Assembly (NCBI GenBank): GCA_003141195.1
Contig: PLLC01000018.1
Coordinates: forward strand, 1 to 35,849
Length of the DNA: 35,849 nt
DNA from: Syntrophaceae bacterium
GTDB lineage: Bacteria > Desulfobacterota > Syntrophia > Syntrophales > UBA5619
Reading direction: 5' to 3'
Positions 10,866-26,457 of the stretch are shown in pieces. Within the stretch, counting starts at the first letter, position 1. The number at the start of each line of letters is the position of its first letter. The notes below the pieces were generated by a model. The model was not told the DNA's origin, made no database searches, and saw only the letters and a list, made by a program, of their open reading frames with translations. A program made the translations under genes and the position numbers.

Positions 10866-13844
10866 TTATTCCACCCTTCTGTCTTTCCAGAAGAGCATAT
10901 TGGTTCGATTCGCCAAACCGGGCGGATTGATGTTCGCCCGCTGGGTTTGGGCGCCGATGAGGCCGCTGCCGCTCGTCGTGACGTACAGATCGGGGGTCGT
11001 TCCACCGCCCGGACCGCCCGGTTTCAGCGAAATGATCGGGGCGGATGGGATCCCCGTTCCGACATCTATGCTGCGGGGCGGGGGAGTGGTGTTCCCCGGG
11101 ATGACGAGCGCCCCGGCGCCCGTCGTGTAATTGAGACCGTAGGTCTTCGCCGTCCCCCCCTGATAACAGGGGTTCGTGCTGCTGGACGGCGTAAACGTGG
11201 TCGCGTAGAGGACCCCGCCGAAGACCGTCTGATCTGCAAGGACCTTCTCGCCCGCGGCCAGGCTGATGTACCAGCCGAATTTGGAGGTGTCGGTGAAGCC
11301 CGCGGCACTCGAAATATCCTGCATATTTCCGGTGGTGCGGGGGGTGGTGGCCGTTCGATCCTCGTCCTTCAATGCGAATATCGTCCCACTCGCGGTAGCA
11401 TTCGTTGGATCCAGCTTATCCCCGGTGCCCCAGTAGACCCAGATTTTGTTATCCATGTCCATGGCCACGCTCGCCGACTGGTATATCGGGCGGCCACTGC
11501 TTGCCTGGAAAAGACGCGCGCCCGTCCACAAGGCGGAGGTGCTGCTGCAGGAATTTCCGTCCTTGCTGAGGCAGAACGTGAAACGCCACATGTTACCGCC
11601 GAGATCGCCCAGATAGACCGTATCGATGAATCCGTCATTGTCGGTATCGACGATCGAGGGTGGGGCCGGCATGGGGTAGTCCAGATTCGCATTGTCCGCC
11701 TTGGTATAACTCCACAGGACATTCCCCGTGGCAAGATCGATCACGAAGAATCCCTTGCCGCTGTTCGCGGCGCCTGGCGCAGAAACCCCGCCGCCGATGA
11801 AAGCGACCCATTTCTCGTTCCCTCCGTCCAGAACGCGGCCGATCATCGGCCTGCTCCAGGGTGCGCCCATGTAAGGCGCCCGGGCGGAGGATAATCCAAG
11901 CCGCCACTTGAAGGTCGGGGTCAGACTGCTGGTCACATCGAGGCAGTAATAACCACAGTAATATTGATATGTAGAAGTATACGACTGGTTAAAGCCGGAA
12001 TCGCACGAGGAGGAAGAACTCCAGAGATTCGTCCCGGCGCCCCGGCCTTCCCCGAAGAGCAGGAGCGTTTTCCAATCGGAGGCGGCTTTCGATGTCCCGG
12101 TACCCGCCGTCGAGGGCACCCATGCGTCGGCCACCGTCACCGGACCGTCTAAGTAGTATTGGTGCGTGAGCGATGACGGTTCGGCGGCATGAGCGATCAG
12201 CTGCAGGCGCGACAGCTCGTTCGGCGGGATGAAACTCCAGGCCTCGGAACCGTCGCTGGTTTTGAAGGCGTGCAGTTGTCCGTCATTCGCGCCCACGAGG
12301 ATGACCCGCTGACCGTTACTGGAAGTGCGGGGGTGACCTGTCCGGTGCTGGGCAAAGGCATTCGGGGAGGTCGGGGTGGCGCTCGTGTCCCTGACATCGT
12401 CAAAGTACGCAGAGGGGGTCCCCTCCGTGATCGGTGCCGAACGAGAGATATCCCCCAACTTCCAGTTTTCCTGGTTGTACGCGCTTTCGCCTCGGAAATA
12501 GCCGACCACCGCGCTTCGTACGGCATTCGTCGCGACGGCGAGATTCGCATTGGTCAGGTTCGTCGTCGTGAAGTCGACTAGTGCCCCCGCCTTGTAAGTT
12601 TTGATATTCCGACTGGCCGCCGCTGTCGTCTTCAGGACATCGCCCGCATCCCACAGTTCGCTCCCCACGGTGCCGTCGGTGTTGACACTGTACTTTTTCA
12701 GGTGTCCGAGCCAGAAAGGATCGCCCGTGATCGGCTGGAAGGAGCCCTCATAGATGAAGTTCTCATCCACAGTCCGGCTGGACTGGATCGACGACTGCGA
12801 CAAGGAGTAGGTGGCTTCGCGGATGATGTTGATGGCCGCCTTGAGCTGGGTGGAGAGCTGATCCCCGTCGGAGGCGATAAAGGCATATCCGGAAAGAGCG
12901 GTGTTGCCCGGATCGCTCGCCGTGGCGAAACAGGGGTTCGTGCTGGTGCTGCCTGTGCAGTTTGCAGTCGTCGCAGATGTCCCACAAGCGGTCACTGCGG
13001 ATGGATCATACCCGGTCGTGCTGCCCACGTTTTCAGTCAGAGGGTTGTCCGTTCCGCCGAAGTAGGCCATCCAGTTCAGGGTCTTTTCCAGATCATCGGG
13101 CATGGCCGCCCCGAAACCGATCACGAAGAGCCGGTACCCGGCATCGGCCAGTGCCTTGGCTTTGGCGACGACCTCCCGGCGCCTTTTGTACATGCCGGAC
13201 TGAGTTTCGGTACCATCGCCGCTGCAAGCGTAGGTGTCCGCCCCGTCCGTTAAGAGGATGACGAACTTCTGACGGCAGGAGGCAGCGGTGTCGAGCGCCT
13301 TGTGGGCGTCAAGGTACAGTTTCGCCTCGCCGTTCACGCAGGCAGATGAGGTGCAGGTGCTGGAAATGGTGCAGCTCGTGTTGTTGTTGCAGAAGATATT
13401 GCTGTATTTCGTGCCGATCGCCTTCGAGAGTTTGTTGGCCCCGCTCAAATAATCCCCGGCTTGGTCGTCGCCGTTGTAAAACCTCATGTAGCCGATCCGG
13501 ACGCCGAGACTCGTTTCGTCCGTGCTGTCGATGGTCAAGTCTCCGTTGTCGTCGAGGATATCGAAGATCGCCCGCTTGGCGATGTCGAGCTTGCTGCACT
13601 TGGTCGTATGGCCCGTACCCGAGCTGGTGTAAAAGGTCCCGCTGCAGGAGGCATTGCCCCAAATTTTAGAAGTGTCGGTATCGCCCGTCGGGTTGAAATC
13701 CATGCTGCCGCTCAGGTCCAGAACAATCATCGCGTCCGGGGCCACTGAGGTGGTGAAAAGGGCCGTCTCATCCGCCCGGGATGTTCCGCCCCAAAAACAG
13801 AGGCCGACCAGGAGCATGGTTATGATGCGGATTTTCGCGGACAT
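10866..13844 (-). CDS. pilY1: Type IV pilus tip adhesin/biogenesis protein PilY1
   Basis: PilY1 sits at the pilus tip and mediates adhesion, surface sensing and control of retraction. The 992-residue product has a signal peptide (about 1-24), a von Willebrand A domain starting about 36 with the MIDAS motif D43-L-S-G-S47, and a C-terminal beta-propeller. The propeller contains the calcium site characteristic of PilY1, DTDNDGFIDTVYLGDLGG near residues 730-747. Repeated Cys pairs in the vWA part suggest disulfides. ATG at 13844 follows GGAGAGG. It is the last gene of fimT-pilV-pilW-pilX-pilY1 and starts 10 nt after pilX. Confidence 0.95.
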   Translation of the reverse strand: MSAKIRIITMLLVGLCFWGGTSRADETALFTTSVAPDAMIVLDLSGSMDFNPTGDTDTSKIWGNASCSGTFYTSSGTGHTTKCSKLDIAKRAIFDILDDNGDLTIDSTDETSLGVRIGYMRFYNGDDQAGDYLSGANKLSKAIGTKYSNIFCNNNTSCTISSTCTSSACVNGEAKLYLDAHKALDTAASCRQKFVILLTDGADTYACSGDGTETQSGMYKRRREVVAKAKALADAGYRLFVIGFGAAMPDDLEKTLNWMAYFGGTDNPLTENVGSTTGYDPSAVTACGTSATTANCTGSTSTNPCFATASDPGNTALSGYAFIASDGDQLSTQLKAAINIIREATYSLSQSSIQSSRTVDENFIYEGSFQPITGDPFWLGHLKKYSVNTDGTVGSELWDAGDVLKTTAAASRNIKTYKAGALVDFTTTNLTNANLAVATNAVRSAVVGYFRGESAYNQENWKLGDISRSAPITEGTPSAYFDDVRDTSATPTSPNAFAQHRTGHPRTSSNGQRVILVGANDGQLHAFKTSDGSEAWSFIPPNELSRLQLIAHAAEPSSLTHQYYLDGPVTVADAWVPSTAGTGTSKAASDWKTLLLFGEGRGAGTNLWSSSSSCDSGFNQSYTSTYQYYCGYYCLDVTSSLTPTFKWRLGLSSARAPYMGAPWSRPMIGRVLDGGNEKWVAFIGGGVSAPGAANSGKGFFVIDLATGNVLWSYTKADNANLDYPMPAPPSIVDTDNDGFIDTVYLGDLGGNMWRFTFCLSKDGNSCSSTSALWTGARLFQASSGRPIYQSASVAMDMDNKIWVYWGTGDKLDPTNATASGTIFALKDEDRTATTPRTTGNMQDISSAAGFTDTSKFGWYISLAAGEKVLADQTVFGGVLYATTFTPSSSTNPCYQGGTAKTYGLNYTTGAGALVIPGNTTPPPRSIDVGTGIPSAPIISLKPGGPGGGTTPDLYVTTSGSGLIGAQTQRANINPPGLANRTNMLFWKDRRVE

Positions 13845-13854
13845 GATGCCTCTC

Positions 13855-14337
13855 CTATCTCGACATGGTGGTGATCTCGATGGGGCCGTAGCCCATTCCC
13901 ACGTCGATCGTTACCGAGCTGTTGTAGTTCGTATTGACACCCGTCACGCTGCCCTCATAGCGCCGCTGTCCCCACTGCTGACCGCCGCCGATCGAGTAGC
14001 CCCTCAAGGGAAGCGCATCCGGACCCGAAGTGGGCCGGCCGACGGAACCGATCGTGTAGCGCGAGTTCGGATCCGCCGCGGCGTTCACCTGCGCGTTGGT
14101 CACCTGGGCGCCGGTCATATTTGCCGGATCAAAGTTCTGCATGAGGCGGTGGACACCCGCCTCCGCAGCGATGGCAGCCTTCTTGTCGCCCACGTTCTTG
14201 GAGCTGACCTTCAGATCGCCGGTCGACAACTGAATAATCAGCATAACGAGAGCGAAAAGGATTGCGCAAGCCATGAGCGCGGTTACAAGGGCAAAGCCCT
14301 CCTCAGAGGATGGTCTTTTTCTATTGGCTAATCGCAT
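13855..14337 (-). CDS. pilX: PilX-like minor pilin
   Basis: Minor pilin predicted to sit in the tip complex with PilY1. A longer frame exists, but ATG at 14337 follows GAGGAACC and gives a proper class III leader: MRLANRKRPSSEEG before FALVTALMACAILFALVML. The mature position +5 is Thr rather than the usual Glu, a feature of PilX and of the T2SS tip pseudopilin GspK. The 160-residue product then has a pilin-like helix (about 20-55) and a small C-terminal domain. It overlaps the end of pilW by 17 nt. Confidence 0.9.
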   Translation of the reverse strand: MRLANRKRPSSEEGFALVTALMACAILFALVMLIIQLSTGDLKVSSKNVGDKKAAIAAEAGVHRLMQNFDPANMTGAQVTNAQVNAAADPNSRYTIGSVGRPTSGPDALPLRGYSIGGGQQWGQRRYEGSVTGVNTNYNSSVTIDVGMGYGPIEITTMSR

Positions 14338-15043
14338 GGTTCCTCGGTATGACGCTCGTCGAATAGATGAGCCGTCTTCTCTGATTCGAATTGGGATCCT
14401 TAAATTCCGTTTCCACGGCCAGGGTGATGTCGATCCGGCGGACATTGGGAATGCCTGCCGGAAGACCGGCGCTAACTATCTCTGTTCCCGTACCGTCATA
14501 ATACCGGAAGACGGGAAGGCCCAACGTATCGTTAATGACCAGGACGGTCCGGGGACGGCCGCTGGCGGCTGTATCGCCCAGGAAGGGCTGACCGCTCCCG
14601 CAATTCGTCGCACGGGTGATGTATTGGTTGACCGTATCGTAGTTGTAACGAATAGTTTCATTTGGGTCACCGAGGGCCCCGTTACTCGGACTACCGGACG
14701 GGCCGCTAATATCCATTTCCACGGCAATGGAATTGGCCGTCGCCTCCTGGATGCCGTGATAAGTCTGATTAACCCCGACTGTGCTGCCGCAAGTACCCGT
14801 GCCGCCGGGAGGGTTGACCCAAAGATTGTCGGCTGATGTGGGGTTATAGGAAGCCATGCCGATCTCCATGGCCATGAGATTCAGGGTCGGTTTGATGTCC
14901 TGCTGGGCCGTCACTTTGCTTTCAATGGCGAACGAATGGCGCTGCGCGGCATTGACGGCCATGTAGACGGCGCCCATGAGAACCACCGTAACGCCCATGG
15001 CAATAATCAATTCGACCAGCGTGAATCCTTTCATCTCTTTCAT
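14321..15043 (-). CDS. pilW: PilW-like minor pilin
   Basis: Prepilin of the PilW type. The ATG at 15043 makes an ATGA overlap with the pilV stop, so I prefer it over the longer upstream frame; it gives 240 residues starting MKEMKG before FTLVELIIAMGVTVVLMGAVY. Gly at -1 and Glu at +5 are both present. The C-terminal half is Thr/Ser/Gly-rich beta sequence with a few Cys residues, ending TSVIPRNHAISQ. It should be processed by PilD (24318-25094). Confidence 0.9.
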   Translation of the reverse strand: MKEMKGFTLVELIIAMGVTVVLMGAVYMAVNAAQRHSFAIESKVTAQQDIKPTLNLMAMEIGMASYNPTSADNLWVNPPGGTGTCGSTVGVNQTYHGIQEATANSIAVEMDISGPSGSPSNGALGDPNETIRYNYDTVNQYITRATNCGSGQPFLGDTAASGRPRTVLVINDTLGLPVFRYYDGTGTEIVSAGLPAGIPNVRRIDITLAVETEFKDPNSNQRRRLIYSTSVIPRNHAISQ

Positions 15044-15486
15044 TGGTTTGCACACCCCGCTGGAAAACGAAAACCTTCCTGCCTCGTCACCATGAGGCTC
15101 TCGGTAATGCTGCCCGTTGGATTGAGCGGCGGCCAACTCACCCGGACGGTGACCAGCCAGGCAGGCGGTATGCTCGCGATCGTGGTGGTGACCTTAAACT
15201 GTACGTCGCCCGGTTGAGGCGTCGGCTGGCCGCTGGCGAAGACTGTGGTCTCCGTCGGACCTCCTGTTGTCACGCTCCTGCAGGGGTTCATAATCCAGGC
15301 TTCCTGCGTCATCAACTGTTCATACAAAATCCCTGACGCCCGGCCCAAATAATCCGATTTGGCCACCGTCTTCCATCCCGGAGATATGAGAGCAAGAGTG
15401 CCCAGTATGGCAACAATGGTCAGAAACATGGCGATGACCACCTCCACCAGGGTAAAACCCCGCTTATCGCATGGTAAACGAGACAT
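15040..15486 (-). CDS. pilV: PilV-like minor pilin
   Basis: Prepilin with leader MSRLPCDKRG and mature N-terminus FTLVEVVIAMFLTIVAILG, with Gly -1 and Glu +5. The 148-residue product has a PilV-like globular part containing WKTVAKSDYLGRASG and a Cys pair (CRSVTTGG and the C-terminal AGCANQ) that could form the usual D-loop disulfide. It overlaps fimT by 23 nt and pilW by 4 nt, so translation is tightly coupled. Confidence 0.88.
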   Translation of the reverse strand: MSRLPCDKRGFTLVEVVIAMFLTIVAILGTLALISPGWKTVAKSDYLGRASGILYEQLMTQEAWIMNPCRSVTTGGPTETTVFASGQPTPQPGDVQFKVTTTIASIPPAWLVTVRVSWPPLNPTGSITESLMVTRQEGFRFPAGCANQ

Positions 15487-15922
15487 AGGCCCTGCCTGTA
15501 ATATTGATAGTGATGGTCGCCGTCGAATTTTTGCTGTTTGTCAGGACTATCGTTCCTGTTGATGTTAAGGTGCCGCGGGGAAGAAAACTAACCTGGTCTG
15601 AGTTAAAATTGGTATTGGAGATGGTCAAACCCGATCCAAAGCTCGTAAGATTCTTAGCTTGTGTTTGCGTCGGCGCGCCACAGGAGGAGGTATTGATGCT
15701 ATAATTTGGCGAACCGTCCGTAAATTGCATGCAGTATTGAACCCCTTCAGAGACTGCCCGTTGTTTACAGGCCGATATATCCGTAACAACATCTCTGGCT
15801 GCCGTCCTCAAATTGACATTGTCCTGGTAGCCCCGCCAGCCAAACAGGGCAACGGCGCTCAGGATGCCGATGATAGCGATGACTATCATCAATTCTATGA
15901 GTGTAAAGCCCTTTCTCAACAT
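15464..15922 (-). CDS. fimT: FimT/GspH-like minor pilin
   Basis: First intact gene of the minor-pilin operon. The leader MLRKG precedes FTLIELMIVIAIIGILSAVAL, a textbook prepilin helix. The 152-residue product has the GspH/FimT layout: DVVTDISACKQRAVSEG helix, a Cys pair (CMQF, SSCG), then beta strands ending RGTLTSTGTIVLTN and ITINITGRAYVSF. The ATG at 15922 overlaps the TAA of a frameshifted DsbC-like gene upstream (TAATG), so the two were probably once one operon. Confidence 0.9.
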   Translation of the reverse strand: MLRKGFTLIELMIVIAIIGILSAVALFGWRGYQDNVNLRTAARDVVTDISACKQRAVSEGVQYCMQFTDGSPNYSINTSSCGAPTQTQAKNLTSFGSGLTISNTNFNSDQVSFLPRGTLTSTGTIVLTNSKNSTATITINITGRAYVSFTMR

Positions 15923-16917: not shown

Positions 16918-16948
16918 AATGCCCCGTGGAAAGATACCACGGGGCATT
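16918..16948 (-). terminator. Terminator of the giant prepilin operon
   Basis: A perfect 12-bp stem AATGCCCCGTGG/CCACGGGGCATT with a 7-nt loop lies 15 nt beyond the stop of the giant prepilin gene. Read on the minus strand it is followed by TCTCATTCT, a weak T-tract, so termination may be incomplete or factor-assisted. Confidence 0.65.
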
Positions 16949-16962
16949 GTGTGTTTACTGTA

Positions 16963-19900
16963 TTAATAACTAATAACCACGATACCTGAACCGCCTGCAG
17001 AACCATAGGTACCAGCTGCTGCTGCATTACCTCCACCACCATTACCAGTATTAGCCGCACCAGTGACGCCAGAACCAAAGTTTCCACCAACAGCATATGT
17101 TATAGAGGTTCCACTAATTGAAGAGGCTCTTCCAGGGCCTTCTGTACCTCCAGAAGCAGCTCCACCTGCACCTCCTCCACCACCAGAGAGATATGTAGCA
17201 GTTCCAGCAGCACCATTAAACCCATAACCAGTTAAAGGACTTGTACTTCCCTGAGTTGCTGAACCACCAGCACCAGAATATTGCCCCCCTCCTCCACCAC
17301 CACTTCCACCGTTTTGACCAGTTTTATTAGGAGTGCCGTTATATCTTGCTCCACCACCGCCACCACCGTTCGCAGTATATGTTGTTGTTCCCGAGAAAAC
17401 TGAGTTTCCTCCATTGTTTCCACGAGTATTCGGTAAGACACCGGCTCCTCCGGCTCCAACCGTTACAGTATAAGAACGAGCAGTTAAGGACAAGGTTCCT
17501 TGTAACAACCCTCCACCACCACCTCCTCCTCCGTATGCAATGGCAGTCAATCCGCCTCCGCCTCCGCCACCACCCGCAACAATGAGAACCTGAGCCGAAG
17601 ATACGGCAGCAGCACATGATAATGTACCGGAAGAAGTGAACGTATGAATCGTTTTACCTCCAGAATAAATTGGATTTCCACCGGAACCACATGTAGGCAC
17701 AGCAGTGTTCTCAGTCACCCTGCTCGCCGCATTATAGTTGGTGCCGCCGGCCTGGTCGTATTGAACCACGCAGGTTCCTGTGACGGCATTCATCGTAAAA
17801 GTGGCCCCGTTGTTCGTGCAGACGCTCATACTGCCGCTACTGTATGCAACTGGCAGATTGGAACTCGCCGTGGCGGCCACCGTGAACGACGAGTTATACG
17901 CAGCACCCGCAGGCGCGTGTGTGGTTACCGTAATCGTCTGGCTGCCATTGTTAATCACGAAGGAACCGCTGGCCGAACCCTGGTAGTTGGTATTGTTGAT
18001 CGTCGCCGTCACCGGGTAGGTGCCCGCGTTTGTCTGCGGAGCGCCGGTCCAGACGATGGTGAGACCAGCCGGATTCGTGGTCGCGGTCGGTGTAAGTGCG
18101 CTGCCTGTGTAAGTCTGGGTCATGCTGCCGAGAGTTACGGTGGCTGTGGTCTTGTTAATCACGAAGGAGCCGCTGGCCGAACCCTGGTAGTTGGTGTCAT
18201 TGACCGTCGCTGTCACCGTGTAGGTGCCCGCGTTGGTCTGCGGAGCGTTGGTCCAGACGATGGTGAGACCGGCCGGAGTCGTGGTCGCGGTCGGTGTAAG
18301 TGCGCTGCCTGTGTAGGTCTGGGTCATGTTGCTGAGGGTGACCGTGGCTGTGCCCTTGCCGACTGTCAATGTGAACGCCTTGGTTATCTTCTGCTCTGCT
18401 GAGCAACTGCCGGTTGCCTGCACAGTAAAAGGAGCAGACGTTACAGTGGCTGTCGGTGTGCCGCTGATGACGCCGGTTGCCGGATCGAGGTTTAAACCTG
18501 CCGGCAGCGTACCAACGGTAACCGCCCATGTATAAGTAGTGCCAACGCTGCCGCCGCTCGCGGCTAATGTTGTCGAGTACGCTGTCCCTACGGTCCCCGC
18601 TGGTAATGAAGATGCGGTGTCGATGGCAATCGCAAGACAAGACTCCCAGCGGAGTTGCGCAGTGGCGCCGCCGCCATTCTCGTAGTACTCCATTACCACC
18701 GTGTGAGAGCCGGCCGTGAGGGTTTGTGTGGCCCGGTATTCGGTTGCTGCATGATCACTCCACGCAACTGGACCACCGGGGACAACGGGGAGGAGGCTGA
18801 GACTGGCACCATCGACCGAGACGCGGACGCCATCATCAGCGGTAGCGATGAAGGTGTACACGCCTGCCGGGAGGGTGAACGCGCCTGTCCACCTTGCTGA
18901 GAATTGGTCAACGGGGATGCTGCTGTCAGGGCTGCCACCTCCCCAGTCGAAGTCCAGGGGGTATGCGTCGCAGCGCATGAGTGCAGGCGACCCCGTGAGA
19001 TTCATGTTGGCGAAGTACTCACCCAGGAACTGTCCTGGACAGCCCTGCTCCCAGCGGAGTCGAGCAACGGCACCGCCGCCATTCTCGTAGTACTCCATGA
19101 CCACGGTGTGAGAGCCGGCCGTGAGGGTTTTCATGGCCGTATATGTGGTTTCTCCCTGCTCCTTCCATTGATTGATGATGAGGTCGCCATCGACCCAGAC
19201 GCGGACGCCATCATCAGCGGCAGCGATGAAGTTGTAGGTCCCGGCCGAAAACGTGAACTGGCCTGTCCACCTTGCTGAGAATTGGTCAGCGGGGATGCTG
19301 GGGTCAGGACTGCCGATTCCCCAGTTGAAGTTCAGGGGCGATGCGTCGCAGCGCGTGAGCGCAGGTGACCCAGCGAGAGTCATGTTGTTGAAGTAATCAC
19401 CCACGAACTGTCCTGCTGAACAGGCAACACCCGACTGGGTGACCAGGAAAGACTGTCCGGCTACGTTTATATTGCCGGTCCTCGTTGCGCCAGTATTATT
19501 GGCGGCCACGGTATAGTTGACCGTTCCATTGCCTTGACCATATTGTCCTCCTGTAATCGTGATCCAGTTGGCAGTGCTTGAGACCGAGGCCTCCCAGTAA
19601 CAGGTCGATGATGTTGCGACGGCAAAGCTTCCTGAACCGCCTGCCGCTGGATGCGTTAGGGAAGCAGCGGGGGTGAGGGTATAACTACATGGAGAGGTTG
19701 CCTCCTGCTGCGGGAAAAAGACTTTTAAATTTGCAAGGTTTATGTTCTGACCCCCGCGGGTAGCCGTGCCCGACGACTCTGTGAAACCAAAGAAGATCTT
19801 ACTGAAATCACTGTGATCCTGCGCTGAAAGGCTAACTGTCCTGCTAACGGTTATCGTCGCAATCCCAGTGGGCAACGGCACAGTAACGTCCTGAAATTCG

Positions 19901-21375
19901 CTCTGCGTGAGACCGGAAAGAGTACTCGACCGCACGATCCAGGCCGTGATCTGATAATTATATGTGCCGGTTGTGGCTGTATCCGGCGTCGGACGCACAA
20001 TTTCCATCCTGACGCTGTATTTATTCCCGTCTTCCATCCAGTTGACTGCCGTGTCTTCATGGTAACCCCCACTGACTCCAGGGACTCCAGGAACCGAGTT
20101 CATGGGATCCCCGCCCGGTGTACCTTCACCTGCACCGTGCTTGTTGTCGTCATAGCTGTTAGAAACGCCTGTACAGCTTGTACCGGCGGCAGTTCTGGCG
20201 CCCCAGAAGATAAGCGCCGCATGATTCTTATTGGAGTAATCGTTTCTGCTGCCGGCCGAACAGATATTGGTAGGCTGTAGGAGATAACATGCCTTCACTG
20301 TTCCGACAATCGGGTCGCCAAATGCCGTTCCGTTGCTCGTTATGGTGGTGTTATCGCAAACTACAGGACTGGTTAAATTAGACTTGGTAAAATAGTGGCC
20401 GCCCGCACCATACCTCACGGTCGCTGTACCGCCGTTGAAGGTGCAGGTTCCGCCCTCCACCGCGCACGATTGCGATTGGTATGTAGAAGATCCTTCCTGA
20501 TTGGGATAGGTGTCGAACTCCAGGGCCATTTTCGGAGGTTTCAGGCCGAGCTGGTCAGCGGTATTCCCCGGGCCGGCATACCCCAGTAGTTCACCCTCGG
20601 AGGTAGTCCCCATCCCGCCGGTACGGTCCTTTGTATTATTGATGGCGCTCATAACCGCGAAGGTAAGCCCATCGGCATAGTCCGTGCTCGTGGTAGAGTT
20701 ATCTGGGAGTAAAAATGTAAATTCGAAATACGCGCGGAGGCCCAAACCAAAACTGCACGAACCGCCATTGCAGGAACCATTGGTGCTGGTCCCCTTATAC
20801 CAGATGGAGCCATAGCTGTTAGGAGCAGTTCCGTCAGTACCAGTCCCCTTGCCCATATCTACGGTATTATCAGCGGGTTTATTGATATCACTATCAGGAC
20901 CAGGGTTTATCACGATGACAGGATGGGCTGGATCATTTGTGTTTGGTTGCCAATTGTTCGGGGCGAAAGGTATAGTAGGGCCACTCCAGGCCGTTACAAT
21001 GTTAAAGTCACTAGCGAGCTGCCTGAAGGCCGCCAGGAAAGTACCCTGGTTAACTTTACCTACGGATTTGTACTGTTTTTTGCCTCCGGAGATGGGAGTA
21101 CTCGTGATCGTGAAGCATTGACCGCCCGACATACAATAGGTGGTGCCCTGTGGGGAAAAGCCCTCTGGGGGAGATGCAATATTGGCACTATTGAAGGCGG
21201 CATACCGCATACCGGCCTTTGCGAGTTGATAAGCATTATAGTCTCTGCCTGCCAGAAGCTCGCCGAAAGTGGAGGACGTTGTAATGGTATAGATGCCTGC
21301 GCCGAGCGCGGCCATCATGACCATGGCTATGATAAGGGTAATCAGAGCAAACCCCTTTTGTTTTTTAAATCGCAT
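16963..21375 (-). CDS. Giant modular prepilin: lectin, BACON, PA14, Ig/MBG, Gly-rich
   Basis: A 1470-residue protein with a prepilin N-terminus (MRFKKQKG before FALITLIIAMVMM; Thr at +5 instead of Glu, as in tip pilins) at the end of a prepilin operon. Rough domain order: prepilin helix 1-55; legume-lectin/concanavalin-like domain about 125-555 (YFEFTFLLPD, DYADGLTFAVMSA, KMALEFDTYPN); BACON-like domain 563-648; two PA14 domains 654-776 and 781-911 (each with FSARWTG, ADDGVRV, HTVVMEYYENGGG); putative Ig (He_PIG) about 915-1005 (GLNLDPATGVISGTP); two nearly identical MBG-like repeats 1008-1143; another Ig-like stretch 1145-1220; glycine-rich domain about 1235-1470 ending GGSGIVVISY. Start: GGAGG 5 nt before the ATG. 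It is probably a surface adhesin carried on a pilus or pseudopilus tip. The prepilin-plus-lectin architecture recalls MshP and MshQ fused; I did not see the MshQ C-terminal domain. The ligand is unknown. Confidence 0.88.
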   Translation of the reverse strand: MRFKKQKGFALITLIIAMVMMAALGAGIYTITTSSTFGELLAGRDYNAYQLAKAGMRYAAFNSANIASPPEGFSPQGTTYCMSGGQCFTITSTPISGGKKQYKSVGKVNQGTFLAAFRQLASDFNIVTAWSGPTIPFAPNNWQPNTNDPAHPVIVINPGPDSDINKPADNTVDMGKGTGTDGTAPNSYGSIWYKGTSTNGSCNGGSCSFGLGLRAYFEFTFLLPDNSTTSTDYADGLTFAVMSAINNTKDRTGGMGTTSEGELLGYAGPGNTADQLGLKPPKMALEFDTYPNQEGSSTYQSQSCAVEGGTCTFNGGTATVRYGAGGHYFTKSNLTSPVVCDNTTITSNGTAFGDPIVGTVKACYLLQPTNICSAGSRNDYSNKNHAALIFWGARTAAGTSCTGVSNSYDDNKHGAGEGTPGGDPMNSVPGVPGVSGGYHEDTAVNWMEDGNKYSVRMEIVRPTPDTATTGTYNYQITAWIVRSSTLSGLTQSEFQDVTVPLPTGIATITVSRTVSLSAQDHSDFSKIFFGFTESSGTATRGGQNINLANLKVFFPQQEATSPCSYTLTPAASLTHPAAGGSGSFAVATSSTCYWEASVSSTANWITITGGQYGQGNGTVNYTVAANNTGATRTGNINVAGQSFLVTQSGVACSAGQFVGDYFNNMTLAGSPALTRCDASPLNFNWGIGSPDPSIPADQFSARWTGQFTFSAGTYNFIAAADDGVRVWVDGDLIINQWKEQGETTYTAMKTLTAGSHTVVMEYYENGGGAVARLRWEQGCPGQFLGEYFANMNLTGSPALMRCDAYPLDFDWGGGSPDSSIPVDQFSARWTGAFTLPAGVYTFIATADDGVRVSVDGASLSLLPVVPGGPVAWSDHAATEYRATQTLTAGSHTVVMEYYENGGGATAQLRWESCLAIAIDTASSLPAGTVGTAYSTTLAASGGSVGTTYTWAVTVGTLPAGLNLDPATGVISGTPTATVTSAPFTVQATGSCSAEQKITKAFTLTVGKGTATVTLSNMTQTYTGSALTPTATTTPAGLTIVWTNAPQTNAGTYTVTATVNDTNYQGSASGSFVINKTTATVTLGSMTQTYTGSALTPTATTNPAGLTIVWTGAPQTNAGTYPVTATINNTNYQGSASGSFVINNGSQTITVTTHAPAGAAYNSSFTVAATASSNLPVAYSSGSMSVCTNNGATFTMNAVTGTCVVQYDQAGGTNYNAASRVTENTAVPTCGSGGNPIYSGGKTIHTFTSSGTLSCAAAVSSAQVLIVAGGGGGGGGLTAIAYGGGGGGGGLLQGTLSLTARSYTVTVGAGGAGVLPNTRGNNGGNSVFSGTTTYTANGGGGGGARYNGTPNKTGQNGGSGGGGGGQYSGAGGSATQGSTSPLTGYGFNGAAGTATYLSGGGGGAGGAASGGTEGPGRASSISGTSITYAVGGNFGSGVTGAANTGNGGGGNAAAAGTYGSAGGSGIVVISY
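17953..18360. repeat. Two tandem 204-bp repeats (MBG-like modules)
   Basis: Units at 17953-18156 and 18157-18360, exactly 204 bp each, are nearly identical at the DNA level and encode two 68-residue MBG-like modules (ATVTL, MTQTYTGSALTPTATT, GLTIVWT, APQTNAGTY). Few substitutions separate them, including at synonymous sites, so the duplication is recent or kept uniform by gene conversion. Confidence 0.85.
18643..19416. repeat. Diverged tandem duplication encoding two PA14 domains
   Basis: The blocks 19048-19416 and 18643-19035 encode two PA14 domains in tandem. Similarity is strongest where both encode TAGSHTVVMEYYENGGGA (near 18660-18715 and 19075-19130). The second copy carries a short insertion in its middle, so this duplication is older than that of the MBG-like modules. 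Confidence 0.8.
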
Positions 21376-21386
21376 ATATCCCTCCG

Positions 21387-21917
21387 TTAGTAGGATTCCT
21401 GTATGAAGACGGTGTTGTTATTAAAGCTTATTGGTGTGTTATTCGCACCGCTGATCGTGAGGTTGATGTCAACCCGTCGTATATTCGCCGGTGTCGCTGT
21501 TGAAGTGCCCGCGGCATAAAAGTAAGTCAGGGTAAACGCCGTGACATGGTCAATCAGGGTGGTTGCCGTTCCACTATCAACTGCAATCGTAATATTTGCA
21601 TTTGAATATGTGATGATATTGGTAACTGGAGCAGTTCCTTGAAGCCTTGTGTAAATGATCGAGTCTGTACCGGCTGTTGTAATGGCCGTTGCGGCGCCAA
21701 GTTCCTTGACAATGCGGGCTATGGCTATCTGGGCTTTCTGAACAGTTTCCGCATTTTGTTTGGCAAAGACATAGCCCTCCGCGATCTTAACCAGCCCCAT
21801 CCCCGCAATAGCGGCCATAATGCCGATCAGCACCAGAGAGACAATCACTTCGATCAGAGTGAAAGCCTTTTCATTCGACATGCGTCTGTGCATTTTACGA
21901 AGCATTTTCTTCACCAT
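21387..21917 (-). CDS. Prepilin-like protein with Ala at -1
   Basis: A 176-residue prepilin. The leader MVKKMLRKMHRRMSNEKA precedes FTLIEVIVSLVLIGIMAAIAG, with Glu at +5. Position -1 is Ala rather than the near-invariant Gly; prepilin peptidases can accept this but usually cut it less well. The C-terminal part is Thr/Ala-rich beta sequence (ANIRRVDINLTISG) without cysteines. ATG at 21917 overlaps the stop of the upstream prepilin (ATGGTGA); a downstream ATG (MSNEKA) would give a shorter leader. It is followed 12 nt later by the giant prepilin gene. Layout is broadly like MshO or PulG-type minor pilins. Confidence 0.85.
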   Translation of the reverse strand: MVKKMLRKMHRRMSNEKAFTLIEVIVSLVLIGIMAAIAGMGLVKIAEGYVFAKQNAETVQKAQIAIARIVKELGAATAITTAGTDSIIYTRLQGTAPVTNIITYSNANITIAVDSGTATTLIDHVTAFTLTYFYAAGTSTATPANIRRVDINLTISGANNTPISFNNNTVFIQESY

Positions 21918-22795
21918 AACACAAACAAGGTCGTCAGTGTCTCATCGGTCCGGTTGGGAACAGTCGTTGGGAGCCCGATGGTGACCTTGAGATATTTTCC
22001 ATAATCCTGGTCGATCGTTGAGCCGGTGAGGTCCACTTCCGTTGCCGGGCTGACGCTCGTATTGAATTTGATGAACCTGTTCTGGATGACGTGATAGCTG
22101 ACACTGGCCGTATCATTAGGAAGGGTTTGGGTAATGTCCCGTCCTTCCGCGCCGATGAGGGTCTGCAGGATCACTGTCGGTACCGTGCTGCTGCTCCATC
22201 GCCATGTGACCGTACCATCGATTGGGGTCACTGTGCTGCCAATGGTTGTCGCTGATGCCCAGATCGGTGTTGAGCCGCCGCTTGTCCCCCCACCAGTGGT
22301 TACATACTGGTTACTTCCATTTACAACAATGCTGTTTGCGCTATAAATCTTGCCTGATTGCCACGCCTGATCGACCAGCGGCGCCAGCGTCGGCGCCGCG
22401 CCGTTCTGTGTCCATGTTAAGGAGCCGTCGGGAACCGTGCCTGCTGCCGGCCAGGTTGGTTCCGGGCAGGGGGAGGGGGAGCTGCAGCTTGTCCCGCCTC
22501 CAGTAATGTACTTAAACCCGTTTCTGTTCAACGTCGTGGGAACAATGATGGTGCCTGCGGCGTACGTCGTGTTCGGCTTCCAGCGGGAATACTGACCGTA
22601 TTGGGCCGAGATTTTTTCCAGGATCTCATTTAAGCTTGCCACCGCATTCAGCCGGAAAATGGGAATAGAGCTCTGGGTAATCGATGTCCCGAAATAGGAG
22701 GTCATCATGGCTGCGACAACCGCGACAATTACAATGGTAATAATCACTTCAATCAGGGTGAACCCGGATTCTGAATCATTTTCCCGTGGCTTCAT
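21911..22795 (-). CDS. Prepilin carrying two tail-fibre-type beta modules
   Basis: A 294-residue prepilin (leader MKPRENDSESG, then FTLIEVIITIVIVAVVAAMM, Gly -1 and Glu +5). After the helix it holds two copies of a Trp/Gly-rich module: about residues 71-132 (WKPNTTYAAGTIIVP, then EPTWPAAGTVPDGSLTW) and 144-201 (WQSGKIYSANSIVV, then TPIWASATTIG and IDGTVTWRW). The pattern Trp, Tyr, Gly, Val then PTWP and DGTVTW is one I know from phage tail fibres and carbohydrate-binding proteins; that link is from memory. The last 90 residues return to minor-pilin-like sequence ending TTLFVLW. It shares a 7-nt overlap with the next prepilin gene. Confidence 0.82.
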   Translation of the reverse strand: MKPRENDSESGFTLIEVIITIVIVAVVAAMMTSYFGTSITQSSIPIFRLNAVASLNEILEKISAQYGQYSRWKPNTTYAAGTIIVPTTLNRNGFKYITGGGTSCSSPSPCPEPTWPAAGTVPDGSLTWTQNGAAPTLAPLVDQAWQSGKIYSANSIVVNGSNQYVTTGGGTSGGSTPIWASATTIGSTVTPIDGTVTWRWSSSTVPTVILQTLIGAEGRDITQTLPNDTASVSYHVIQNRFIKFNTSVSPATEVDLTGSTIDQDYGKYLKVTIGLPTTVPNRTDETLTTLFVLW

Positions 22796-22799
22796 GGTT

Positions 22800-23258
22800 T
22801 TATATATCCTGTATATATCCTGTAATATTGTTAACCTTAAAGGCTTTAGTAACTCCGCCCTGACTCAGGGTAATCGTGATATCCGCTCCCGGGTTACCCC
22901 AGGAATCAAAAGCGACCGTTGGGGTTGTTGTACTCGTTACACCGGACGGAAAGGTGTGCGTGCTGGAATTTTCAGAAGGGAGATTGATGGACACAGCAGT
23001 CCCGCCGCTGACGGGTACGTTTGTAATGGTATAGGAGGTACTGCTTGTAAAAACGATGCCCCATGAGGTCGACGTATCATCACTCAAAGCCTTCAATTGC
23101 GCATATCTCAGATGCGATTTTAAGATATCCGTCTGCGGGATCAACTCATTCTGGTTTGACCCGACACGGCTGGCGGCAACGGCCGCGAAGATGCCGAGAA
23201 TGATCAGCACGGCAATCACCTCGATCAGGGTGAATCCCTTGTTGTCAGATGTTTTCAT
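22800..23258 (-). CDS. GspH/FimT-like prepilin
   Basis: Prepilin of about 152 residues with leader MKTSDNKG and mature start FTLIEVIAVLIILGIFAAVAA (Gly -1, Glu +5). The helix is followed by LKSHLRYAQLKALSDD and strands ending AFDSWGNPGADITITL, a GspH/FimT/MshC-like pattern. The ATG at 23258 lies 2 nt past the upstream stop (TGATATG), which favours reinitiation; an ATG at 23273 is an alternative that overlaps the upstream gene and adds five residues. The next prepilin begins 4 nt after its stop. Confidence 0.82.
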   Translation of the reverse strand: MKTSDNKGFTLIEVIAVLIILGIFAAVAASRVGSNQNELIPQTDILKSHLRYAQLKALSDDTSTSWGIVFTSSTSYTITNVPVSGGTAVSINLPSENSSTHTFPSGVTSTTTPTVAFDSWGNPGADITITLSQGGVTKAFKVNNITGYIQDI

Positions 23259-23259
23259 A

Positions 23260-23892
23260 TCAAACAGGCTCATGTTTTTTACCAAGGCATACGGACCCGT
23301 TGTTGCTCCTGACTTTTTCGATACCGCAGGAGAGAGCGAGGAAAATACCCGCGGCAACGCTGATGCCGACCATTGCGGCAACGAAGGGAATCAGAACGAG
23401 GCTTAATTCCATTAACAAAAGCGCCCCGCTGATCACCACCGCTTCGATGTAGAGAAGGCTGGCAAATCTCGCCCCTTTTACACCGGCTTGCGAATTTTTT
23501 TTCAACAGAAATCCCCAGAAACCCAGCCATCCGGCCAGACATAAAGAGAGCCCCGGCTGCAGCAGAAGGAGCGGCGGAAAGAGCGCACCCGCGTCGCTGT
23601 TTTTAAAACCGCTGTTTTTAAAACCAATGAACAGAACGACGGCGAGGGCCAGGTGGGCGAAGGCGACCAGCATAAAGTATAAAGACACCTCGTCTCTGCT
23701 GATCCCTGTGTGCAGAGCCCTGATCGGGTCCAGCGTGAAGTCGCGGGGTGCGGCAATGAAATGCCATAAACGCACAAAAGCCCCTTCCTGCGGCTGCATA
23801 ATAGCGGCCATCACCCGGGGCGCAAAATCGTCCGGGGGCTCGATGGCGGGTGTTGACTTTATGAGGTCTATGATGTCCTGCTGATGTTCCAT
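23260..23892 (-). CDS. Four-helix membrane protein heading the prepilin operon
   Basis: Family not recognised. The 210-residue product has a cytoplasmic N-terminus of about 70 residues beginning MEHQQDIIDLIKSTPAIEPPDD and then FAPRVMAAIM, a pattern I associate with short N-terminal segments of anti-sigma-like or assembly proteins. Four hydrophobic segments follow (about 74-96, 104-126, 145-165, 168-192). It reads directly into the prepilin genes. A role as inner-membrane platform partner or regulator of the cluster is inference from position. ATG at 23892 has only a weak AAGAAAG ribosome site. Confidence 0.75.
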   Translation of the reverse strand: MEHQQDIIDLIKSTPAIEPPDDFAPRVMAAIMQPQEGAFVRLWHFIAAPRDFTLDPIRALHTGISRDEVSLYFMLVAFAHLALAVVLFIGFKNSGFKNSDAGALFPPLLLLQPGLSLCLAGWLGFWGFLLKKNSQAGVKGARFASLLYIEAVVISGALLLMELSLVLIPFVAAMVGISVAAGIFLALSCGIEKVRSNNGSVCLGKKHEPV

Positions 23893-24317: not shown

Positions 24318-25094
24318 TCAAATCCGCAGAGAGAGGAAAAGCGCTATCAGATCACCCCCGAAGAAGAGGTAGACGACGGCCGCCAGACAGAGAAAAGGAC
24401 CAAACGGCACCGCATACTTCATGTCCTTACCCTGGAACAGGATGAGCGCAAGCCCAACGACGGCCCCGAGAAGCGAGCTGCCGAGGAGGATGAAGAGAAG
24501 CGATTTCCAGCCCAGAAACGCCCCCAGCATGGCGAGCAGGTTGACGTCCCCGCCGCCCATTCCCTCTCTCCCCGTCAGCGCCTCGTAGTAAACGGCCACA
24601 AAATAGAGGCTGCCGGCGCCGATCATGATCCCGAGAAAGGCGTCGATGACCGTAAGCCCCATGAACAGGACGGCCAGCACCGCGAAGACCGGAATCCCGG
24701 TCAACGTGAGGACGTGCGGGATGATCTGGTGATCAAGGTCGATGAAACTGATGACGATGAGGGTGCAGACGAAGACGAAAACGGCGGGAAAGGCGGCCGT
24801 CAGGCCGAAACGCCGGAAGAGGAGCCAGGCGAAGACCGCCGTCATGAGCTCGATCAGGGGATAGCGGAAGGAGATCTTCCCTCGGCAGTCCCGGCATCTT
24901 CCCCCGAGGAGGATAAAACTGATCAAGGGGATGTTATCGTAGAAGCGGATCGGATGGCCGCATTGCGGGCAGCGGGAGGGCGGGGAGACGATCGAGAGGC
25001 CCTCCGGGGTGCGGCCGATGCAGACGTTGAGGAAACTCCCCACGGCGGCGCCCGCCAGGGTAAAGATGACCGCCAGCCACAACGTCGAAAACAT
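24318..25094 (-). CDS. pilD: Type IV prepilin peptidase/methyltransferase
   Basis: Inner-membrane aspartyl protease that removes prepilin leaders and N-methylates the new N-terminus. The 258-residue protein has the N-terminal GSFLNVCIGRTPEG motif, the zinc-type cysteines C42, C45, C67 and C70, and the two catalytic Asp regions (FIDLDHQIIP about 117-126 and GMGGGDVNLLA about 176-186), with about seven to eight transmembrane helices. All expected active-site features are intact. GGAGG lies about 10 nt before the ATG at 25094. It is 32 nt downstream of the rfbC-like gene and presumably serves both prepilin operons nearby. Confidence 0.96.
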   Translation of the reverse strand: MFSTLWLAVIFTLAGAAVGSFLNVCIGRTPEGLSIVSPPSRCPQCGHPIRFYDNIPLISFILLGGRCRDCRGKISFRYPLIELMTAVFAWLLFRRFGLTAAFPAVFVFVCTLIVISFIDLDHQIIPHVLTLTGIPVFAVLAVLFMGLTVIDAFLGIMIGAGSLYFVAVYYEALTGREGMGGGDVNLLAMLGAFLGWKSLLFILLGSSLLGAVVGLALILFQGKDMKYAVPFGPFLCLAAVVYLFFGGDLIALFLSLRI

Positions 25095-25126: not shown

Positions 25127-25582
25127 TCAGCCGTCCTTTCGCCCCCAGTCGTAGGGGATATCATTTTCATGGGGATGAATCCGGAATTCATCCGGTTCCC
25201 GATAGCTGTAAGGTTCGGTCGGGGTGTTGACGACGATGGCCTCTTCCGCAGAAATGCACTTAAAGCCGTGATGGACGAAGGGGGGGATATGGACGAGGAT
25301 TGGGTTGTACGCCCCCGCAAAGAATTCATTGACCTCGCCGCGGGTCGGGGAGCCCTCCCGGCCGTCATACAGGACGATCTTCATCATCCCCCGGACGACC
25401 GCCATGTTGTCGGACTGCCGTTTGTGGTAGTGCCACCCCTTGACCACCCCCGGATAGGCGGTCGTCATATAGACCTGGCCAAAACCCTGGAACATTTCGT
25501 CGTCGGCGCGCAGCATCTCCATCAACCGGCCCCGCTCGTCGGAAATAATCTTCAGTTTCTTGATCATCACCCCGTCGATCAT
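25127..25582 (-). CDS. RmlC/FdtA-like sugar nucleotide epimerase or isomerase
   Basis: Cupin-fold protein of 151 residues related to dTDP-4-keto-6-deoxyglucose 3,5-epimerase (RmlC) or the 3,4-ketoisomerases. Visible features: ISDERGRLMEML at the start, YPGVVKGWHYHKRQSDNM (the HxH site), VLYDGREGSPTRGE and IPPFVHHGFKC. It is shorter than RmlC (about 180 residues), so the exact reaction cannot be assigned. It follows rfbA, and the two would act on dTDP-sugars for a surface polysaccharide or a pilin glycan. Start ATG 25582 behind GGGGGAAAACG. Confidence 0.8.
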   Translation of the reverse strand: MIDGVMIKKLKIISDERGRLMEMLRADDEMFQGFGQVYMTTAYPGVVKGWHYHKRQSDNMAVVRGMMKIVLYDGREGSPTRGEVNEFFAGAYNPILVHIPPFVHHGFKCISAEEAIVVNTPTEPYSYREPDEFRIHPHENDIPYDWGRKDG

Positions 25583-25622
25583 CGTTTTCCCCCGGTTTTT
25601 CTTAAGGCGAAAGTTTGACGAA

Positions 25623-25737
25623 CTCGTAAAAAGTCGTCATACCCGCGAAAGCGGGTATCCAGGAACATGGTAACATCTTTAAAAGACTGGATTCCCGCTT
25701 CCGCGGGAATGACAAACAGGTCCGTGTTTCAAAGCTT
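25623..25737. repeat. Palindromic repeat element, copy 2, at the rfbA 3' end
   Basis: Contains TACCCGCGAAAGCGGGTA (in 25635-25662) and, inverted, ATTCCCGCTTCCGCGGGAAT (in 25687-25713), with the same TTTCAAAGCT end (25727-25736) as the element at 24094-24224. Its other end carries TCGTAAAAAGTC, shared with the element at 5184-5305. The right end overlaps the rfbA stop codon, so the last few residues of that protein derive from the repeat. Confidence 0.8.
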
Positions 25738-26457
25738 GTTCGCCCCGGTTTTGGCCACCATGCCGCCGGCATACTGGAGGGAATCGAAGGTCCCCGCGTC
25801 GGTCCACCACCCGTCCAGGATGTCCCAGGCGATCTTCCCCTCCCGGATGTAGAAATTGTTGACGTCGGTGATCTCCAATTCTCCCCGTTCCGAGGGCTTC
25901 AGCGTCTTGATGAAATCGAAGACCCGGTGGTCGTACATGTAGATCCCGATCACCGCATAGTTGGAGGCGGGCGCGAGCGGTTTCTCATCGATCCGGACGA
26001 TCTTCTCCCCCGCGAAGACCGGCACGCCGAATCGCTGGGGATCGGCAACCTCCTTCAACAGGATGCGGGCTCCGTCCTTCTGCGCCCGGAACGATTCGAC
26101 CGCCCCGCGGATGTTTTTCTCGATGATGTTGTCGCCAAGGATGACGACGATCTTGTCGTTGTCGGCAAAGTATTCCGCGAGGCTGAGCGCGGCGGCGATC
26201 CCCCCCTCCCCTTCCTGGTAGGTATAGTTGATGTGCCGGAGGCCGAACTCCTTCCCGTTTCCCAAGAGGCGCAGAAAATCCCCGGCGCTGTTCCCGCCGG
26301 TGACGATGAGGATTTCGTCGATCCCGGCATCCACCAGGGTCCGGATGGGGTAGTAGATCATCGGTTGGTTGTAGATCGGCAAGAGATGTTTGTTGGTGAC
26401 CTTGGTCAGGGGATACATCCGCGTCCCCAGACCTCCCGCCAGGACGACACCCTTCAT
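25729..26457 (-). CDS. rfbA: Glucose-1-phosphate thymidylyltransferase
   Basis: Makes dTDP-glucose or a similar nucleotide sugar from the sugar-1-phosphate and dTTP. The 242-residue protein shows the nucleotide-binding loop LAGGLGTRMYPLTKVTNKH (6-24), the sugar site ILGDNIIE, and EKPLAPASNYAVIGIY and WWTDAGTFDSL later. It is of the short type (about 240 rather than 290 residues). AAAGGAG lies 6 nt upstream of ATG 26457. The C-terminus (KTGANKL) is set by the inserted repeat element. Confidence 0.92.
   Translation of the reverse strand: MKGVVLAGGLGTRMYPLTKVTNKHLLPIYNQPMIYYPIRTLVDAGIDEILIVTGGNSAGDFLRLLGNGKEFGLRHINYTYQEGEGGIAAALSLAEYFADNDKIVVILGDNIIEKNIRGAVESFRAQKDGARILLKEVADPQRFGVPVFAGEKIVRIDEKPLAPASNYAVIGIYMYDHRVFDFIKTLKPSERGELEITDVNNFYIREGKIAWDILDGWWTDAGTFDSLQYAGGMVAKTGANKL

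Follow-up and report, generated by a model that had tools for sequence, protein, structure and literature searches.

A 1470-residue prepilin lacking Glu5 and fused to an L-type lectin is a probable adhesin-bearing minor pilin of an MSHA-like pilus in a Syntrophaceae bacterium

Type IV pili need some means of carrying their adhesins, and one gene in a 35,849-nucleotide contig of a Syntrophaceae bacterium (GenBank assembly GCA_003141195.1, PLLC01000018.1; hereafter the window) raises the question of whether a single chain can be both pilus subunit and adhesin. An earlier note had described a 1470-residue protein in which a prepilin leader and helix, with Thr in place of Glu at +5, run on into about nine further modules. 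We found one uninterrupted open reading frame on the minus strand, which the note had omitted, with an ATG start, GGAGG just 5′ of it and no internal stops (Table 1). The N-terminus reads MRFKKQKG/FALITLIIAMVMMAALG, with Thr at +5 as described, and Pfam matches together with the lectin evidence below bear out the modules.

Table 1. Features of the giant prepilin gene and its surroundings, in window coordinates
Feature	Coordinates	Strand	Basis and remarks
Whole ORF	16963..21375	(-)	1470 aa; non-Glu5 (K-type) prepilin with lectin and accessory modules in one chain
Class III leader MRFKKQKG	21352..21375	(-)	Sequence; predicted cleavage after Gly8
Pilin module (residues 9-130)	20986..21351	(-)	58-residue helix and four antiparallel strands (AF2); Thr at +5
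L-type (legume-like) lectin (about 132-558)	19702..20982	(-)	VIA-align Z 20.3 to 7elv; conserved site residues
BACON domain (580-650)	19426..19638	(-)	Pfam PF13004; strands in predicted model
PA14 copy 1 (658-775)	19051..19404	(-)	Pfam PF07691
PA14 copy 2 (about 782-912)	18640..19032	(-)	Pfam; 77% DNA identity to copy 1
He_PIG Ig-like domain (918-1005)	18361..18624	(-)	Pfam PF05345
MBG copy 1 (1010-1076)	18148..18348	(-)	Pfam PF18887
MBG copy 2 (about 1083-1149)	17929..18129	(-)	Pfam; 91% DNA identity to copy 1
Probable further Ig-like spacer (about 1151-1235)	17671..17925	(-)	Suggested by sequence pattern; no Pfam match
Glycine-rich C-terminal domain (1249-1470)	16966..17631	(-)	Pfam PF21722
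12-bp G+C-rich hairpin, terminator-like	16918..16948	(-)	Just after stop; -23.1 kcal/mol, z -7.6
Glu5 prepilin directly upstream (J-like slot)	21387..21917	(-)	PF07963 E 4e-8
Glu5 prepilin (I-like slot)	21911..22795	(-)	PF07963 E 6e-8
Glu5 prepilin, GspH-like (H slot)	22800..23273	(-)	PF07963 E 6e-8, GspH E 5e-4
Prepilin peptidase (PilD/GspO type)	24318..25094	(-)	PF06750, PF01478
Separate canonical minor-pilin cluster: FimT/GspH-, PilV-, PilW-, PilX-like genes and PilY1	10866..15922	(-)	Context only

The start of the protein has the make-up of a type IV pilin, with a class III leader, Gly at -1 and a hydrophobic helix, and the leader Gly8 was invariant across 22 homologues. The N_methyl Pfam model scored below its threshold (14.4 of 21.2 bits) because the prepilin lacks Glu5. 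The mature product would have about 1462 residues. An Rfam search of the whole window returned no matches, and sigma-70-like sites in it did not rise above chance expectation. A chance or misassembled fusion was considered and rejected, as the nearest homologue (locus L049, about 60% identity), from a separate genome, has the identical in-frame prepilin–lectin–BACON start.

Modelling, which the earlier note had proposed as a check, predicted both a pilin fold and an L-type lectin sandwich. AlphaFold2, run with 28 sequences, placed the helix and four strands of the pilin module ahead of a beta-sandwich and the BACON domain (mean pLDDT 74; 78 for the pilin part alone), with low pLDDT at the junction between pilin part and lectin. 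When the pilin-module model was compared by VIA-align, the top ten rows were all minor pilins or pseudopilins (Z 6.0–8.6, with unrelated rows at 5.0 and less); these came mainly from I-type minor pilins, from the XcpGHIJK filament and from Streptococcus sanguinis PilA, each individually weak at Z below 9. By these weak scores the module is structurally closest to I-type subunits rather than to GspK. Foldseek alone found no significant match for the module (E above 0.1), and a pilin-module profile found no second copy in the genome.

The lectin was invisible to Pfam in the 1470-residue sequence itself, with weak PF18483 matches in homologues; a PDB search by a profile built from the full N-terminal alignment yielded nothing beyond a chance match, and a lectin-only profile matched legume lectin 2fmd (E 6e-4). 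Structural comparison was clearer: the lectin model aligned to Methanocaldococcus jannaschii 7elv with Z 20.3 and to legume lectins at about 19, and L-type lectins including these and YwfG 7yl4 fell within Z 18–20. The motif D235...E286-F-D288-T-Y-P-N292...D379...H385 was invariant or nearly so in 20 homologues of both the fused and the split kind, and from the motif pattern we take D235, E286, D288, N292, D379 and H385 to be the equivalents of ConA D208, E8, D10, N14, D19 and H24. The region therefore combines the two marks of an L-type lectin, a predicted legume-lectin beta-sandwich and ConA-type metal and sugar residues, and it carries an insertion of about 75 residues of its own (about 296–370) that is absent from aligned relatives. 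It is predicted to bind glycans in a Ca/Mn-dependent manner.

In the window the giant gene is the last of a four-prepilin cassette, following three Glu5 prepilins in H-, I- and J-like slots, of which I and J were assigned by gene order; this is the place of a K-type subunit. In the directly upstream prepilin (21387–21917) Ala takes the place of Gly at -1 (NEKA/FTLIEV). Sugar nucleotide genes (25127–26457; a nucleotidyl transferase and a dTDP-sugar isomerase-like gene) are found just upstream of the gene for the prepilin peptidase. A second set of minor-pilin genes, FimT-PilV-PilW-PilX-PilY1, begins about 1 kb downstream of the giant ORF and includes the sole PilY1 match in the genome (10866–13844); the PilY1 beta-propeller (PF05567) was not found in the 1470-residue protein. 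Elsewhere, contig 11 (L114) carries a PilM-like gene, two short genes, a secretin, AAA_22, a 561-aa gene, MshEN-T2SSE and, where T2SSF (MshG) would be expected, a 431-aa ORF, which is the MSHA biogenesis order mshI-J-K-L-M-N-E-G; PilM-like, secretin, AAA_22 and T2SSE were recognized by Pfam, and J, K, N and G by position only. This MSHA-type order lies on a contig separate from that of the cassette, and we infer that the cassette uses it.

The earlier note had suggested looking for the same architecture and neighbours in other genomes, and such relatives were found. Scanning contigs with the single protein gave no matches, and an alignment-based scan recovered homologues; the first 575 residues matched 39 of 100 related genomes, many in the prepilin part only. 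Named homologues come mostly from Syntrophaceae, Smithella, Solidesulfovibrio/Desulfovibrio and Desulfobacterales, with distant ones in Rhodocyclales; Solidesulfovibrio alcoholivorans DSM 5433 and S. aerotolerans DSM 16695 are cultivable species that carry the fused gene. Using a local-profile scan of all ORFs to tell the two states apart, we found a non-Glu5 prepilin and lectin fused in one ORF (roughly 440 to 1050 mature residues) in about 22 Desulfobacterota genomes besides the window, or 24 with Rhodocyclales. At seven other loci (L031, L052, L053, L060, L062, L063 and, with a truncated prepilin, L054) they are split, a non-Glu5 prepilin of about 320–350 aa being followed directly by a lectin protein with an ordinary Sec signal peptide. 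Homologues beginning with an ordinary signal peptide were what the earlier note had named as grounds for abandoning its reading, and the split lectins do literally begin so; each has its own adjacent prepilin, however, and for that reason they support the prepilin–lectin link rather than refute it. The split lectins bear BACON and Gly_rich_2 (L052), PA14 and several BACON domains (L060), or He_PIG and BACON (L031). For the secreted lectin of L055, no prepilin gene was found within 5 kb upstream. Three Glu5 prepilins, tightly spaced or overlapping, precede the non-Glu5 gene in most loci with enough flank, with fewer detected in some by a pattern that misses the window's own J-like gene (Ala at -1).

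A maximum-likelihood tree of 38 lectin domains required five changes between fused and split states, at least two of them forced by well-supported branches; split L062, for example, is sister to fused L068 (98/90). The tree backbone is poorly resolved, so the direction of these changes is unsettled. A search of ten genomes from the same genus, several of them incomplete, did not find the lectin. This patchy distribution is in line with the fused lectin pilin being an accessory, exchangeable trait. The split locus L053 sits on a contig labelled Kiritimatiellae and is nested among Smithella-type sequences in the tree, by misbinning or transfer.

Several relatives depart from the simple layout. 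Seven encode tandem prepilins in one ORF of 1118–1286 aa (L041 6381–9764, L042 184–3540, L043 7469–11128, L045 10394–14230, L046 7766–11509, L047 7964–11602 and L048 8639–12499), in which a Glu5 prepilin, a CFVATA/CFI-box-like motif and a hydrophobic stretch ending in Lys/Arg are followed in frame by the leader and helix of a second prepilin, one without Glu5; these could be polyproteins cut by prepilin peptidase. In Desulfobacterales L075 (8837–12163), L078 (7887–11300) and L077 (8927–11524), and also in L076, L059 and L073, the match to the lectin profile falls into two pieces. A PQQ/BamB-type beta-propeller lies between the lectin halves in L075 and L078 and after the first half in L077, so that a propeller seems to be nested inside the prepilin-borne lectin in these Desulfobacterales. 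L072 (6122–8967) has a fused prepilin–lectin with an extra C-terminal LamG, and in L057 (7964–13128; Desulfovibrionaceae) three consecutive non-Glu5 prepilin genes, two with lectin, represent duplicated tip-type subunits.

Our hypothesis, held with a probability of roughly 0.7, is that an MSHA-like type IV pilus has this protein as its fourth minor pilin, of K type (PilX/GspK/MshP-like), and that the adhesin which the pilus presents is fused to it. Prepilin peptidase would remove the 8-residue leader, and the helix and small beta module would join the three upstream-encoded Glu5 minor pilins in a priming complex. Lacking Glu5, the lectin-bearing subunit would cap the fibre, so that the lectin and the PA14, BACON, Ig-like and glycine-rich parts would leave the cell first and could bind glycans on surfaces or other cells with the help of Ca/Mn. 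With the binding modules on the non-Glu5 subunit itself, that pilus would need no separate adhesin; the relatives would divide the same job between a small non-Glu5 prepilin and an adjacently encoded, Sec-secreted lectin, as with MshP and MshQ. Both leader processing and tip position are predictions from these features. Against an MSHA-like pilus stands the location of the assembly machinery on another contig, and the T2SS or the PilY1 cluster could be the partner of the cassette. The low scores of the pilin-module matches, the weak profile link to MshP, the patchy distribution of the lectin and the lone secreted lectin of L055 also speak against the hypothesis.

The protein might instead be a modular pilin placed along the shaft, or an optional subunit, its modules decorating the fibre for multivalent adhesion. 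Shaft placement is conceivable where a modular pilin has a flexible linker (PMC8179133), which the low pLDDT at the pilin–lectin junction would allow, but we consider it unlikely: no parsed lectin-fused homologue had Glu at position 5 of its prepilin, the gene holds a fixed fourth place in an H-I-J-K-like cassette, and modules totalling more than 1300 residues would leave little room on a shaft. It is similarly improbable that the leader merely anchors a member of a type II secretion pseudopilus or an inner-membrane glycan sensor or receptor facing the periplasm. The genome does have a T2SS, GspK also lacks Glu5, and the cassette adjoins no assembly genes in the window; that T2SS locus, however, already has a GspK-like gene of its own (PF21687), PA14, BACON and glycine-rich parts also occur in secreted MshQ and split lectins, and the cassettes of L057 and L058 have pilus machinery genes beside them, on the upstream side.

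Downstream of the lectin, Pfam recognized two PA14 (3e-37), two MBG_3 (1e-33), Gly_rich_2 (1e-15), He_PIG (3e-12) and BACON (4e-7) domains. The close identity of the MBG copies and of the PA14 copies (Table 1), together with a GC3 of 0.22 in the glycine-rich part versus 0.55 for the whole gene (glycine codon choice may account for part of this low value), makes the tail look like a recently assembled mosaic; repeats as close as the MBG pair could have been collapsed or expanded in the assembly. That the protein captures polysaccharide for degradation on the fibre, in the manner of a cellulosome, rather than serving attachment is very improbable: modules of the BACON, PA14 and lectin kinds often occur in enzymes that degrade glycans and the PA14 part has an NCBIfam xylosidase match, but Pfam and NCBIfam found no catalytic domain in the ORF and no degradation gene was recognized next to it in the operon.

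How far, then, does the fused, tip-type minor pilin resemble the MSHA pair? MshQ is the putative adhesin of the MSHA pilus, and both its role and the way in which MSHA pili carry their adhesin are open questions (PMC7096442, PMC9815625). DUF6701-bearing (MshQ-type) genes were present in 47 of 185 genomes from the class of a Rhodocyclales relative. In L100, L107, L108 and L109, Glu5 prepilins are followed by an Ala5 or Gly5 prepilin in the MshP position and then by MshQ, and L111 has a Thr5 prepilin upstream of MshQ. The MshQ proteins of these loci bear LamG (ConA-like), and one has the composition Gly_rich_2-PA14-LamG-DUF6701. As in MSHA, the giant gene places a non-Glu5 prepilin after three Glu5 minor prepilins and continues into ConA-like, PA14 and Gly_rich_2 modules, in a genome with MSHA-like machinery. 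Unlike MSHA, it holds both roles in one chain, without DUF6701 (PF20419) and with an L-type lectin unrelated by profile to the MshQ tested: the lectin profile matched none of 20 MshQ-bearing regions even at E 1, and DUF6701 was not found in six genomes carrying homologues. The prepilin profile matched MshP weakly (E 6e-7 to 8e-4), with some Glu5 prepilins scoring similarly. MshQ family members are separate Sec-signal proteins encoded after mshP, an arrangement absent from the fused window ORF and seen as the split form in relatives. The suggestion in the earlier note that the roles of MshP and MshQ are joined in one chain thus gains from gene order, split relatives and common modules, while kinship with MshQ itself is not supported. 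Given this agreement in position, order and modules, and the mismatch in DUF6701 and lectin sequence, the best reading of the sequences is that the giant protein may be equivalent in role to MshP plus MshQ, yet is not a member of the MshQ family.

A wider proposal, on which we are evenly divided, is that these proteins form a lineage-wide family of Desulfobacterota tip minor pilins in which K subunit and adhesin have repeatedly been fused or split, some seemingly with a propeller nested in the lectin, and that by the logic of gene fusion MshP holds MshQ-type adhesins at the tip, which would answer how MSHA pili carry them. Because a prepilin and lectin encoded as neighbours have fused relatives, it can be predicted that the K subunit carries the adhesin at the tip. 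For specialists the fused and split relatives are the most useful part, turning carriage of MshQ-type adhesins into a simple interaction test. The protein also shows the modular-pilin strategy at work in the capping subunit and in very large bodies, cases apt to be overlooked when a survey depends on a Glu5-type motif. A likely device for binding glycans is thereby identified in syntrophic and sulfate-reducing bacteria.

Modular type IV pilins, which join a pilin module to an extra module unrelated to pilus biology as this protein does, are a known and widespread class (PMC8179133); the length of 1470 residues is real, but the earlier argument that size alone makes it unusual was overstated. 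A published survey of them was based on the IPR012902 motif, and the most extreme multi-domain case that it names is an 860-residue protein (PMC8179133). The protein resembles Streptococcus sanguinis PilC (lectin) and PilB (vWA) in its class III leader, small pilin module, grafted binding module and co-encoding with other minor pilins (PMC9934059, PMC8179133), and PilC, a lectin modular pilin, binds glycans (PMC9934059). In Streptococcus it is Glu5 minor pilins that carry the grafted adhesins (PMC8179133, PMC9934059), PilB and PilC being of about 50 kDa, whereas the window protein has Thr5 (the K slot), nine modules, an L-type lectin, some 1462 mature residues and a diderm host. Subunits without Glu5 cap the minor-pilin complex (PMC10191384, PMC7541494, PMC9934059), and the likeness to PilX and GspK seen by the earlier note holds, both being tip subunits in the literature (PMC7541494, PMC9934059). 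In the Myxococcus model PilX presents PilY1 (PMC7541494); here too a non-Glu5 minor pilin goes with a large adhesin, at a putative tip location, but PilY1, which has a beta-propeller, is made as a Sec protein of its own, and the window keeps its PilX/PilY1 cluster apart. With the legume lectins, 7elv and YwfG 7yl4 the protein shares the fold and the metal and sugar residues, and it differs from other L-type lectins in its insertion and in being mounted on a pilin. Against the background of modular pilins already described, the novelty lies in the non-Glu5 slot at the tip, in the size and in relatives of both the fused and the split kind.
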